Both the position numbers and the translations under genes were made by a program. The notes under the pieces were generated by a model. That model saw only the letters and a list, made by a program, of their open reading frames with translations, ran no database searches and was not told the origin of the DNA. From an uncultured Algibacter sp. (GTDB lineage: Bacteria > Bacteroidota > Bacteroidia > Flavobacteriales > Flavobacteriaceae), in contig NZ_CANKXG010000001.1 of assembly GCF_947487575.1 (NCBI RefSeq), positions 186,001-250,000 of the forward strand: a stretch of 64,000 bases of DNA. The letters run 5' to 3'. Of this stretch, positions 4,309-15,810 are shown piece after piece (position 1 is the stretch's first letter; every line of letters starts with the position of its first letter).

Positions 4309-4872
4309 TTAAAAGTTTTTAGCAACTTTTTCTAGTTCCATATACCAATCTTCACCAAACTTTCTTATGAGCGCTTCTTTTACAAATTTGTAGATAGGAA
4401 TTTGTAATTCTTTTCCAAGAGCGCATGCATCATCACAAATTTGCCATTTGTGGTAGTTAACTGCAGAAAACTCACTATAATCTTGAACCCGAACTGGATA
4501 TAAATGACATGAAATTGGTTTTTTCCATGACACTTCGCCCTGATTATAAGCTTCTTCAATACCGCAAAGCGCCACTTTTTTATCATCAAAAATAACGTAG
4601 GCACAATCGGCTCCATTAATTAATGGTGTTTCTAATTCACCGTCATCAGTGGTAATAAATGTACCCTGAGATTCAATAACATCAATACCTTCTTGACGTA
4701 AAAAAGGCTTCACTTTAGGATAAATGGCTTTTAGAATTTCTGCTTCATCGGCATCAAGAGGAGCACCAGCATCTCCATCAATACAACACGCACCTTTGCA
4801 TGCCGATAGATTGCACATAAAATCCTTTTCAATAATGTCTTCAGACACTATAGTCTTACCTAACTGAAACAT
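4309..4872 (-). CDS. DUF3109 family cysteine-rich protein
   Basis: The product is 187 aa when started at the ATG at 4872 (MFQLGKTIVSED). A longer frame reaches 4908, but a TATTTTTG promoter element at 4903-4896 lies inside that extension, so the shorter start is preferred. The protein is cysteine-rich: LSACKGACCIDGDAGAP, ADCAY, ALCGIE, SCHLYPVRV and CDDACALG. This pattern is characteristic of DUF3109, which may bind metal or an Fe-S cluster. The biochemical role is unknown. It is transcribed alone. Confidence 0.85.
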   Translation of the reverse strand: MFQLGKTIVSEDIIEKDFMCNLSACKGACCIDGDAGAPLDADEAEILKAIYPKVKPFLRQEGIDVIESQGTFITTDDGELETPLINGADCAYVIFDDKKVALCGIEEAYNQGEVSWKKPISCHLYPVRVQDYSEFSAVNYHKWQICDDACALGKELQIPIYKFVKEALIRKFGEDWYMELEKVAKNF

Positions 4873-12807: not shown

Positions 12808-13155
12808 TTACTCCCTTTTTACAAGCGCATAAAAATCGTTCTCTAAAGGTAAATATCCCTGATCGTAAATAAAGTAATAAATAGTACCTGCTTTAGTGGT
12901 ATAAATACTTGTGAAATAATTAAAATCGAAACCGTTTTGAATAAGTTTTGTTCTTGTTGTTTTTGTTTTTTGTTTGGGGTTTAAAGTTTCTAAAATTCTC
13001 CAATTTTTTCTTAGCCTATTATTTATATTACGAATCAGGTTTTTAGAATCTTTATTAATGGTGTTATTATAAGCATTTCTGCAATAATCACTACAGAATT
13101 TTTTATCACTTCTGCCTACTAATTTCTCACTACATTCTAAACAAACTTTAGTCAT
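12808..13155 (-). CDS. Small Zn-ribbon protein, unknown function
   Basis: The product is 115 aa from the ATG at 13155. The N-terminus has a four-cysteine ribbon (CLEC ... FCSDYC), followed by a basic linker and a Tyr/Phe-rich C-terminal half. A longer frame with a GTG at 13173 starts inside the left terminus of a mobile element and is an artefact. The ATG at 13164 is also possible. The element inserted immediately upstream duplicated 18 bases that include this start codon, so the gene has lost its original promoter unless one lies in the element end. Confidence 0.65.
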   Translation of the reverse strand: MTKVCLECSEKLVGRSDKKFCSDYCRNAYNNTINKDSKNLIRNINNRLRKNWRILETLNPKQKTKTTRTKLIQNGFDFNYFTSIYTTKAGTIYYFIYDQGYLPLENDFYALVKRE

Positions 13156-13168
13156 AATTTTCATTTTT
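13151..13168. repeat. Left flanking 18-bp direct repeat of the mobile element
   Basis: GTCATAATTTTCATTTTT, directly outside the left inverted terminus. The identical 18 bases follow the right terminus at 15263-15280. It looks like a target duplication, though 18 bp is longer than the 8 bp usual for the IS1595 family. Confidence 0.85.
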
Positions 13169-13195
13169 GGCACTTATATACATTGAGGGACAAGC
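13169..13195 (+). repeat. Left terminal inverted repeat (27 bp)
   Basis: It shares GGCA, TATATACA and AGGGACAA with the right terminus at the same spacing (21 of 27 positions). Confidence 0.8.
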
Positions 13196-13254
13196 CCATT
13201 AATTTTAGATATTAAATTTAGTAAAAATTATCCGTTTACAAACGATTAAAACCT

Positions 13255-13495
13255 CCACCATAGACATATACTTTTTTATCTGTTCTGTTCATACAAAATA
13301 CTATTGAAAATTTTGGTGTGTTTTGAAACGTGATTTATACGGTGTTTACCACCAAGTAAGCGAAAAGCATTTAGAGCGTTTTTAGATGAATATAGTTCAC
13401 GTTTTAATACTAGAGACTTATCTAGTCAGGAGCGTTTCGAGAAGTTTTTGGTTGATAGTGAAAGTATATTAACTTATAAACGACTAACTACTTAA
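13255..13495 (+). pseudogene. IS1595/ISXO2 transposase remnant, C-terminal part
   Basis: Correcting small frameshifts gives H-T-N-T-I-E-N-F-W then CVLKRDLYGVYHQVSEKHLE and FLDEYSSRFNTRDLSS, ending at TAA 13493-13495. This is the C-terminal end of an ISXO2-like DDE transposase, including the catalytic glutamate in TIEN. At least three frameshifts are needed: an extra A near 13297, a missing T near 13314, and a missing T near 13380. The N-terminal two-thirds is absent, since only about 90 bases separate the remnant from the left terminus. Confidence 0.8.
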
Positions 13496-13632
13496 TAAAG
13501 TACAATGTATTTCGTCGATTGAATGTTTATAAAGTTGTTAGTAAATATGTTAAAAAAGTTAAATTTATGTATTTCAACTGATTTTTAATACATTTCATCA
13601 TTTTCTTGTTAGTTTTTTCGCCGAAATAGTTG

Positions 13633-13726
13633 TATATTTGTACTGTCAATACACAAAGTGTAAAGGACGTGGTTGCCCACAGAACCGTAAATGTGGACCT
13701 CATTCACCGAAATGGGGTTTTTTTTT
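13633..13726 (+). ncRNA. Candidate small RNA inside the mobile element
   Basis: A TATATTTG promoter element (13633-13640) predicts a start near 13647. About 75 bases later comes a strong terminator, with stem CCTCATT (13698-13704) and AATGGGG (13711-13717) followed by nine T. In between are hairpins ACAC-AAA-GTGT, GTGG-TTGC-CCAC and, as an alternative, CCACA/TGTGG. No ORF of useful length lies within. The transcript would converge on and slightly overlap the 3' end of the nuclease-like gene, so it could act as a 3' antisense. No Rfam family was recognised. Confidence 0.55.
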
Positions 13727-14225
13727 ACAATAAACTTTCATTATAAGTATTATAGTCCCATTCAAAATCTTTATTTTTTGTTTTACCTACATGAAATGCA
13801 GTAACTAAAAGTAAATCTTTACTAACTGGTTTTAAAATAACAACAAAGTTTTTTTCTTTAAACCAATAGTGTTTTTTTAAATATCCTTTATCTTTCTTCT
13901 CGAAATATAAAATCTTTTCACTATCCCTTTGTGCTAAAACGCACTTCGTCCAATGCATTTTATTAGCCCTATCCTTATCAAAAACTCTTGGCCTACCATA
14001 AGTTTGTTCTCTTGTTATTAGATGAACGAATGTTTCAGGCATACCTTCAAATCCTTTAACCCATGATTTTTGTGGCTTTAAAGTAATTTTGCGTCCATCA
14101 ACTTCAACATAATCATTCACAAAATCATCCCTATATATTTCATACATCTGGGCAATCTGTTTTTTTGTAGGTTTTGTTTCATCTAAATCATCAAATAGAT
14201 AATCCAAATCATCTAAATCAATCAT
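13725..14225 (-). CDS. Possible RelE/PBECR-like nuclease, transposon cargo
   Basis: The 166-aa protein has an acidic N-terminus (DLDDLDYLFDDLDE). The C-terminal part, about residues 80-160, has the layout of phage-type RelE/Barnase/ColicinD-fold nucleases: RPRVFDKDRANKMHWTK, then a hydrophobic ILYFEKK strand, YWFKEKNFVVILKP and LLLVTAFHV. The family assignment is by eye and uncertain. Its start overlaps the end of the DUF3800 gene by 8 bases, so the two form a coupled operon. A toxin or defence role is inference from the fold guess and cargo position. Confidence 0.45.
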   Translation of the reverse strand: MIDLDDLDYLFDDLDETKPTKKQIAQMYEIYRDDFVNDYVEVDGRKITLKPQKSWVKGFEGMPETFVHLITREQTYGRPRVFDKDRANKMHWTKCVLAQRDSEKILYFEKKDKGYLKKHYWFKEKNFVVILKPVSKDLLLVTAFHVGKTKNKDFEWDYNTYNESLL

Positions 14226-14934
14226 TTGAAATAGGTTTTATTTGAAAATCATGAATAAAAAACTTAGTATCCCAAGGCTCAGTGCCATCATCCAACAGAT
14301 ATCCAGAAACATCCTCTATATAATCAATAATCTTCTTTTTTACAGGAGAAGCATTGTCTTTTAAGTGTTCTTTTCTTGCTTTGTAGCATATTGCACCAAT
14401 AAAAAAATCTGTAAGTTGTAAAAACTCACTTTCATTTGAATGGATATGCTGAAAGTGCTTAAAAGGAGGATTGTTATTGTAAATTATATTTAATTCTTTT
14501 TCTAATAAATCAAGTCTCGTCTTCCCTCTTGTGTCTTTAACATCGAGATACACCCTGTAAATATCACTATCGTGAGATGACTTATCATTAAGTAAAATCT
14601 TTAGTGTTTTATAATAGTAACTGTTTTGGTCTTCTCTATTATATCTAGCACTACCTAAATTTTTCTTTTTCTTTATTAGAACGCTCCTAAATTCAATATC
14701 ACTTCTAAAAAAGAAATCTACCAATTCTTTGTATAAATCCCATCTTGACATAGAAAGTTTGTTCCACTTAAATTCCATAGGGTTTCTATGAGTAAACTTA
14801 ATGGATTTTAAAACCCTCTTCAAATCCTCGTAATTATCTTGTGAAACTTTTGTATACCCAATACACATTACTTCTGAATCGTCATTTTCTAAATGACAAC
14901 TTTCATCAATATATATATTATATGTTTTATCCAT
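14218..14934 (-). CDS. DUF3800 domain protein, transposon cargo
   Basis: The 238-aa protein has the DUF3800 signatures: NIYIDESCH at residues 6-14, YRVYLDVKDTRGKT in the middle and FLQLTDFFIGAICYKAR near 175-190. The family is thought to adopt an RNase H-like fold, with the acidic residues of YIDES, LDVKD and QLTD as the likely active centre. DUF3800 genes are common on mobile elements and next to defence genes. It is the first gene of a two-gene operon with its own promoter. Confidence 0.75.
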   Translation of the reverse strand: MDKTYNIYIDESCHLENDDSEVMCIGYTKVSQDNYEDLKRVLKSIKFTHRNPMEFKWNKLSMSRWDLYKELVDFFFRSDIEFRSVLIKKKKNLGSARYNREDQNSYYYKTLKILLNDKSSHDSDIYRVYLDVKDTRGKTRLDLLEKELNIIYNNNPPFKHFQHIHSNESEFLQLTDFFIGAICYKARKEHLKDNASPVKKKIIDYIEDVSGYLLDDGTEPWDTKFFIHDFQIKPISND

Positions 14935-14960
14935 ATATGAGTTTTGTGTAAATATAACTA

Positions 14961-14991
14961 CAAATTTACATTATATTTACATCATGAACAA
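14961..14991 (-). promoter_or_regulatory. Predicted promoter of the DUF3800 operon
   Basis: On the minus strand TTG (14991-14989) and TAAATTTG (14968-14961) are 20 bases apart, a good Bacteroidota promoter. Transcription would begin about 20 bases before the ATG at 14934. The -33 region overlaps the start codon of the divergent 35-aa ORF, so expression of the two may interfere. Confidence 0.55.
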
Positions 14992-15091
14992 AGAAGAAAA
15001 ACCAAAAGAGTACAACGATAAGTTAAAAATCAACACCTCTTTAGACGACGTATTAAAGGCTTCCGTTCCTAAGCCTAAAACAAAGGAATAA
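14984..15091 (+). CDS. 35-aa small protein, divergent from the DUF3800 operon
   Basis: The ATG at 14984 to the TAA at 15089 encodes MNKEEKPKEYNDKLKINTSL and then DDVLKASVPKPKTKE. It is charged and soluble, with no cysteine. The KLKINTSLDDVLKA core resembles tiny proteins I recall from other Bacteroidota genomes, but no function is known. A TATATTTA near-promoter lies only a few bases upstream. A regulator or antitoxin for the neighbouring operon is one possibility. Confidence 0.5.
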   Translation: MNKEEKPKEYNDKLKINTSLDDVLKASVPKPKTKE

Positions 15092-15262
15092 TACGCTCAT
15101 TGATAAGTGAGAGTTTATCTAGCAAGATGCTTGTTTCTGGGAATTACTGATTTAGCGGTGGTCAAAGGAAAGTTTTAAACGTCTTACATTCTTCAAAAAA
15201 AAGCACGTTTCTAAGTGCGAGATTCTATTTTATTTGTTTGTCCCTTGTTGTATATAGATGCC
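15092..15262. other. Right end of the mobile element, including 27-bp terminal inverted repeat (15236-15262)
   Basis: This is non-coding. A GCAC-GTTTCTAA-GTGC hairpin lies at about 15202-15217. The final 27 bases are the right inverted terminus. No transposase remnant is visible at this end. Confidence 0.6.
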
Positions 15263-15280
15263 GTCATAATTTTCATTTTT
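15263..15280. repeat. Right flanking 18-bp direct repeat of the mobile element
   Basis: Identical to 13151-13168 and directly abutting the right inverted terminus. Confidence 0.85.
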
Positions 15281-15477: not shown

Positions 15478-15810
15478 ATGAACACACTTAGAAACAAAGT
15501 ACAGTTGATTGGTAACTTAGGAAACGATCCTGAAATCATCAATCTTGAATCAGGAAAAACATTAGCAAAGTTTAATATTGCTACAAACGAAAGCTACACC
15601 AATAATAAAGGTGAAAAAATAACAGATACACAATGGCATAATATCGTGGCATGGGGAAAGACAGCACAAATTATTGAAAAATATGTAACTAAAGGCAAAG
15701 AGATTGCTATTGAGGGTAAATTAACTTCAAGAAGTTATGACGATAAAGATGGGAATAAACGCTATATCACAGAAATTGTATGTGGTGAATTGTTGATGTT
15801 GGGTAAATAG
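15478..15810 (+). CDS. ssb: Single-stranded DNA-binding protein, short form
   Basis: The 110-aa protein is a single OB-fold (NKVQLIGNLGNDPEI, KFNIATNES, WHNIVAWGKTAQI, YVTKGKEIAIEGKLTSRSY). It stops right after the OB fold (GELLMLGK) and lacks the linker and acidic tip (usually DxxPF) that recruits repair and replication partners. It is therefore likely a second, specialised SSB rather than the main replicative one. It is monocistronic, ending at a terminator shared with nadB. The mobile element lies 200 bases upstream. Confidence 0.93.
   Translation: MNTLRNKVQLIGNLGNDPEIINLESGKTLAKFNIATNESYTNNKGEKITDTQWHNIVAWGKTAQIIEKYVTKGKEIAIEGKLTSRSYDDKDGNKRYITEIVCGELLMLGK

Follow-up and report, generated by a model that had tools for sequence, protein, structure and literature searches.

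A predicted conserved small RNA accompanies an rlfA-rlfB-like candidate defence pair on a probable IS1595-type transposon remnant

Introduction

RNA motifs associated with DUF3800 (DUF3800-I, -VIII and -IX in Rfam) were reportedly described by Weinberg and colleagues in 2017. The nuclease PrrC sits within a type I restriction operon, and in type III toxin-antitoxin systems tandem repeats of an RNA lie upstream of the toxin gene in one operon. Transposons of the IS1595 family usually duplicate 8 bp of their target. In one report, an RNase H fold is predicted for DUF3800 and an association with noncoding RNAs is noted (PMC10910872), and another links nucleases of the PrrC and RloC type to type I restriction systems (PMC2610378). 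Here we analysed 64,000 nucleotides of an uncultured Algibacter sp. (contig NZ_CANKXG010000001.1, positions 186,001 to 250,000, forward strand), called the window below, in which a small transposon-like unit carries two overlapping genes, A and B, a short open reading frame (ORF) and a candidate RNA.

By homology, the two genes are the pair that PADLOC lists as the candidate phage-defence proteins PDC-M04A (DUF3800) and PDC-M04B, homologues of rlfA and rlfB of phage P1. The comparisons below indicate that the candidate RNA is a real, conserved short RNA gene at the 3' end of B and that A, B and the RNA travel together. On balance, and with reserve, we think that the three would form a nuclease module under RNA control, with a role in defence or addiction, that a small transposon acquired.

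Results

The cargo genes and their RNA

The cargo consists of the following features, in coordinates of the window.

13633-13640, plus strand: promoter-like box TATATTTG just upstream of the RNA, of the TAnnTTTG type
13645-13725, plus strand: gene of a small structured RNA, convergent with B, placed by comparison and by model R3, which was built without the window (45.6 bits)
13645-13668, plus strand: bulged 5' hairpin of the RNA, followed by a terminator-like hairpin and a T-tract
13725-14225, minus strand: gene B, 166 amino acids, PADLOC PDC-M04B (E 2e-60), homologue of P1 RlfB
14218-14934, minus strand: gene A, 238 amino acids, DUF3800 (PF12686, E 2.7e-14) and PADLOC PDC-M04A (E 1.2e-71), homologue of P1 RlfA
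14984-15091, plus strand: ORF of 35 amino acids, divergent from A, without a family and with one weak relative in another genus

We take TAnnTTTG to be a promoter box type of Bacteroidota, and PDC presumably stands for phage-defence candidate. The first-pass annotation of the window had described an intact cargo of two overlapping genes, a 35-residue ORF and a candidate RNA. All three reading frames are open and the RNA is borne out by the tests below; what had been missed is that the genes are the PDC-M04/RlfAB pair and that the RNA is its conserved partner.

A and B are neighbours that overlap by 8 nt, as PDC-M04 has the two genes side by side, and P1 carries their homologues in identical order. 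In the alignment of A (A4), the residues D10, E11, D131 and D176 are kept across distant members, and E54 nearly so; in B, H68, R86 and T142 are kept. The mean column identity is 47% in A, compared to 31% in B. We suggest that both proteins act on nucleic acid. Matches to the model of A occurred in 34 of 395 genomes of the phylum, some of them weak, and a peptide pattern of B found no relatives in the genome contigs. Viral contigs gave no match to the single protein A and at least 48 loci when searched with alignment A4. The name PDC-M04 was not found in the literature searched. The relative of the 35-residue ORF is a 73-residue ORF flanked by two larger ORFs (L062:1399-1620), and shares 56% over 32 residues.

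Structure of the RNA

The RNA gene has a general layout: it is short, lies at or beyond the stop codon of B on the strand opposite to B, and contains two hairpins, one bulged and one terminator-like. The bulged hairpin has three outer pairs, one unpaired base, five inner pairs, a loop and two unpaired bases on the 3' side. Out of 38 hairpin cores, the 21 of length 24 were aligned without gaps and the 17 of other lengths were excluded. In this alignment 96.4% of the cells were paired, compared to 70.1% in shuffles, and each of the eight pairs showed at least one two-sided change, with 38 double-change cells against 10.5 in shuffles. None of 500 shuffles attained any of these values of pairing or double change, and the covariation score dropped from 0.709 to at most 0.277 when the pairing partners were slid. 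The cores were selected visually at one set position, a choice that biases them toward pairing; the covariance-model tests guard against this bias. In 14 of 24 RNA loci a TAnnTTTG box stood no more than 20 nt upstream, compared to 0.36 expected from the neighbouring sequence.

The P1-type RNAs consist mostly of two paired hairpins and have no long free variable segment, so RNA-guided targeting through a variable guide, judged by eye, seems unlikely; the rejection is weaker for the window type, which has a longer middle part. In the P1 genome (AF234172.1; L060:4155-4226) the RNA occupies the strand opposite to rlfB at the 3' end of that gene, where the record annotates no RNA.

Covariance-model searches

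Two covariance models were built, R1 from six sequences of the window type and R2 from 13 sequences of the P1 type, and were run against 26 and 57 sources, respectively. The test set comprised the 51 searched loci in which A and B were detected and there was room behind B. Outside it stood two loci whose sequence ends at B (L114, L138), 13 viral loci that are mostly near-duplicates, and two loci with a short B (L101, L102). A match at E≤1e-3 at the 3' end of B, on the strand opposite to it, was present in 45 of the 51 loci, and in 26 of the 32 that were outside the training sets, where some loci nearly duplicate one another or P1. The six loci without any model match at this threshold were L039, L091, L092, L096, L097 and L099. 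The sole match elsewhere was a second RNA copy in L154, in which the copies occupy 4311-4370 and 4530-4596, about 160 nt apart, behind a single B gene.

The window's own RNA was found by R1, which had the window in its training, and was missed by R2. For this reason a third model, R3, was built from the other five window-type sequences with the window left out. In the whole 64-kb window, R3 gave only one match up to E=1, at 13645-13725 on the plus strand (E 2.7e-8; these E-values are rough).

The models were also used to look for the RNA irrespective of the proteins. R1 gave four matches in 247 relatives, namely three training loci and one in G083 (E 6.8e-4) that had neither A nor B nearby. 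R2 gave 31 matches in 27 of 296 genomes of the phylum, and 22 of these were strong (E≤1.4e-9). Among the 21 strong matches for which a locus was available, seven had A and B (five training loci and two known already), nine had B or a B fragment and five had neither, where absence refers to the fetched stretch only. The nine in which A was undetected are L167, L169, L173, L174, L176, L179, L180, L182 and L193. In L171, one of the five, the contig ends 130 bases away and may for that reason lack B. The nine weak matches (E 1.4e-4 to 7e-4) had neither gene and may be due to chance. Thus the RNA occurs also where A or B is broken or undetected.

A search by DNA similarity was less selective: matches at E≤0.1 were obtained in 102 of 198 genomes, short and mostly in T-rich or AT-rich parts, and what proved helpful was one weak hit in G023 at the 3' end of B. 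At the RNA, no Rfam family reached its threshold in the window, in six loci including P1, in 18 loci, or, at the gathering threshold, in 20 of the at least 48 viral loci; over the window as a whole, Rfam gave chance-level matches only. An SraB match overlapping the RNA in L084 was far below threshold (26.8 bits against a cut-off of 130) and was taken as chance. A match to Rfam DUF3800-VIII was found in L091, about 260 nt behind B on the opposite strand. By comparison with such families, we regard the RNA as one of the kind that travels with DUF3800, in an architecture that has no Rfam entry.

In a further locus without a detected B (L103:2347-2410), a DUF3800-VIII RNA immediately follows the DUF3800 gene and is encoded on the other strand. 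It is possible that the convergent placement is more general.

Genomic settings of the pair

The neighbours were checked by Pfam in seven bacterial loci (L038, L039, L040, L053, L085, L086 and L089), and in five of them a restriction specificity or methylase gene was a neighbour. L053 has the order hsdM, hsdS, A, B, hsdR, so that the pair lies between hsdS and hsdR; hsdS precedes A in L038, L085 and L086, and a DNA methylase gene precedes it in L039. In L040, hsdR lies at a distance of a few kilobases, and in L089 a helicase domain was the sole finding among the neighbours. Not all of the further loci inspected by eye adjoin restriction genes. The element in the window contains none, and its copy of the pair is not placed within a type I operon as PrrC is.

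The transposon unit and its insertion site

The cargo lies in a unit of 2094 bp (13169-15262) bounded by imperfect inverted termini, with these features.

13151-13168, no strand: left 18-bp target duplication, holding the start codon of the Zn-ribbon gene; perfect repeat with a single counterpart in five empty sites
13169-13195, plus strand: left terminal inverted repeat, identical to the right terminus at 21 of 27 positions
13323-13492, plus strand: C-terminal part of an IS1595/ISXO2-like transposase, disrupted by a frameshift, with partial matches to PF12762 and NF033547
15236-15262, minus strand: right terminal inverted repeat, identical to the left terminus at 21 of 27 positions
15263-15280, no strand: right 18-bp target duplication; perfect repeat with a single counterpart in five empty sites

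The termini, the length of the unit and the perfect 18-bp repeat were all reproduced as the first-pass annotation had given them. The repeat directly abuts both termini. When stretches of length L from the end of the left flank and the beginning of the right flank are compared, they are identical solely at L=18, so no shorter duplication suits these ends. In an automatic scan for termini and duplications, the window scored 48.3 and the best scores of 18 other loci with A and B were 19.1-26.9; no comparable terminus signal was present within 1400 bases around those 18 loci.

The Zn-ribbon gene (12808-13155) and ssb (15478-15810), which the insertion separates, adjoin each other in five of nine other genomes of the genus (L008-L012), and the remaining four have a different gene order. 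All five adjoining sites could be aligned and are empty, each with a single counterpart of the 18-mer, and the window flanks joined with one 18-mer align with them straight through the insertion point. Because of these empty sites, the straight alignment and the flush repeat, we conclude that this is a true insertion with an 18-bp target duplication between ssb and the Zn-ribbon gene. The start codon of the Zn-ribbon gene, placed by comparison with relatives at 13155-13153 on the minus strand, is inside the 18-mer and was retained. The earlier statement that the element had inserted at this start codon has thus held, and the empty site with one copy of the repeat, for which a search between the two genes had been proposed, is present.

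The transposase stub consists of two overlapping frames, 13323-13385 and 13364-13492. Read as one, they cover only the last 29 positions of PF12762 (125-153 of 153), scoring 23.4 bits against a cut-off of 27; the match to NF033547 (E 4.3e-6, 26.8 bits) is below the cut-off of 75. A frameshifted C-terminal stub had been described before, and these matches agree with it. The unit is probably a remnant, and probably a dead one, of an IS1595/ISXO2-like cargo transposon, a family assigned by partial match. The origin proposed earlier is also in keeping with the termini, which resemble those of relatives. What is observed is a single insertion of a transposon followed by decay of its transposase.

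Full-length relatives of the transposase occur in cargo-bearing elements of 3008 bp (L056:1661-4668), 3140 bp (L054:1583-4722) and 3749 bp (L055:1907-5655), and a fourth related element, in L225, has 3736 bp. In L054 and L055 the cargo includes one protein that we take from its appearance to be RhuM-like. The right end of the window's unit and the left end of the L225 element agree at 20 of 26 positions by hand count. The length of target duplications was compared in 14 scans including the window, and L054, L055, L056 and L225 were counted because their ends resemble those of the window or each other; the scan score of L055 was only 29.4, and its inclusion rests on its ends. Set aside were L230 (score 41.2, 19 of 20, 6-bp repeat, another type of ends), L227 (32.8, a 13-bp repeat within simple-repeat sequence), L233 (31.1, 9 bp, ends rich in A) and six scans scoring 20.9-26.7. 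The four relatives with like ends have duplications of 8, 8, 8 and 8 or 10 bp. The 18-bp repeat, which had been called odd at the outset, is indeed longer than these, and the window does not show the 8-bp duplication of the IS1595 family.

The unit occurs only once in its own genome. With up to two mismatches, the terminus pattern matched only the window's ends in 296 genomes of the order, of which 49 were of the same family and no other was of the genus. With up to three mismatches, it gave 15 further matches in 14 of 124 closer relatives, a set that includes nine of the genus; the reversed control gave 28, so these matches are taken as chance. In these two sets of genomes, neither an autonomous partner nor a second element with the same termini and other cargo was found, and the other copies for which the first-pass annotation had proposed to look did not appear. 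Two transposase queries of 84 locus records found no A-B pair on an IS1595-type element elsewhere, the sole match being the window's own stub (L095). The idea that the element has been maintained for its cargo finds no support here.

Discussion

The transposon has decayed, belongs to a known family or is closely related to it, and is unusual in its duplication; the main interest of the locus is the three-part module that it carries. A two-gene candidate defence system becomes a module of three parts, with an RNA that can be tested, and the unexplained rlfAB genes of P1 gain a probable RNA partner. The trio is seen as the cargo of a 2-kb transposon, and because the pair can adjoin restriction genes, the idea of a guard function is open to direct tests.

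We suggest that A and B would make up a nuclease-type effector that is bound and controlled by the RNA, which would either hold or activate it. Because its geometry is constant, the bulged hairpin is most simply explained as a protein-binding element, and it would be the part of the RNA that the effector holds. The effector would normally be silent, and it may be released on infection by a phage or once an adjacent restriction system has been put out of action. By analogy with PrrC and its type I system, the module might serve as a guard beside restriction systems, and a transposon would allow the trio to live independently of restriction operons and phages. A broader proposal, which we put forward tentatively and would not call probable, is that RlfA, RlfB and the RNA represent a distinct and widespread ribonucleoprotein class of immunity or addiction, with members in restriction operons, in phages and on a small transposon. 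In this class, a covarying bulged-hairpin RNA would be the indispensable partner of two proteins, one of them RNase H-like and the other a further nuclease, and the rlf genes of P1 would be one case.

Several results weigh against an RNA-controlled nuclease module. Gene B had no Pfam family and no PDB match by sequence search, and the same PDB search gave only two weak matches for A (E 0.07 and 0.54). The RNA went undetected in six of the 51 loci and R2 missed that of the window, the 3' half of which is shorter than and unlike those of its nearest relatives. The promoter-like box is missing in 10 of 24 RNA loci. The P1 record annotates rlfA and rlfB as "possibly associated with lytic replication", and a P1 study lists both genes as non-essential (PMC10695390).

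The strongest rival is an RNA antitoxin. It is conceivable, if rather unlikely, that B (or A) is an endoribonuclease toxin, that the RNA inhibits it directly as in type III toxin-antitoxin systems and that defence is a by-product of addiction. Two small proteins with a short structured RNA would suit this, and among the 21 strong RNA-first loci the nine with B or its fragment but no detected A and the five with neither resemble what an antitoxin outliving its toxin might leave, although contig ends may explain some of them. However, the RNA is convergent and downstream and does not form upstream tandem repeats in the operon, ToxN was not matched, and the better conservation of A than of B is not predicted by a model with one toxin. 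The RNA might instead regulate the A-B message as an antisense or transcript-end element, a convergent small RNA sharing a bidirectional terminator, since its 3' end overlaps the end of B or is no farther than about 60 nt from it in the 45 matched loci. We consider this very unlikely: the covarying 5' hairpin keeps one bulge geometry across very different A and B sequences, which is expected of a bound structure.

Even less credence is given to a role of A and B in replication with the RNA as an origin or primer element. The P1 annotation and the PHROG name point to such a replication-like function, but the restriction specificity or methylase neighbours in five of seven bacterial loci and the non-essential listing in P1 speak against it. 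Concerning the element itself, the 18-bp repeat might have pre-existed or have arisen by a later rearrangement and not by transposition. The repeat is out of line with the four related elements, and only one element shows 18 bp, which also counts against our reading of the transposon. However, a single counterpart in all five aligned empty sites and the flush fit to both termini make another origin of the repeat quite unlikely.

Against this background, we return to a nuclease module under RNA control and compare it with described systems. It differs from type III toxin-antitoxin systems in its convergent, downstream RNA and in having no ToxN match in Pfam. It resembles the PrrC and RloC nucleases in L053, where A and B lie between hsdS and hsdR in a placement similar to that of PrrC, but no homology was detected, the module includes an RNA and the element in the window lacks restriction genes. 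With the IS1595 (ISXO2-like) cargo transposons the unit shares its termini and probably its transposase remnant, and L054-L056 carry cargo too, whereas the 18-bp duplication, the dead transposase and the nature of the cargo set it apart. The PADLOC models of PDC-M04 match both proteins (E 1.2e-71 and 2e-60), but they cover two proteins and no RNA, and the pair here is the cargo of a transposon remnant. The RNA stayed below every Rfam threshold in the loci scanned and its architecture differs from that of DUF3800-VIII; like the DUF3800-associated RNAs, it is a small structured RNA adjoining a DUF3800 gene, and DUF3800-VIII matches flank two of the loci found here (L091 and L103). The rlfA-rlfB pair of P1 is located in a phage genome and no RNA is annotated in its record, but the genes are homologous and in the same order, and they are met by a convergent RNA of the same kind with the bulged hairpin.

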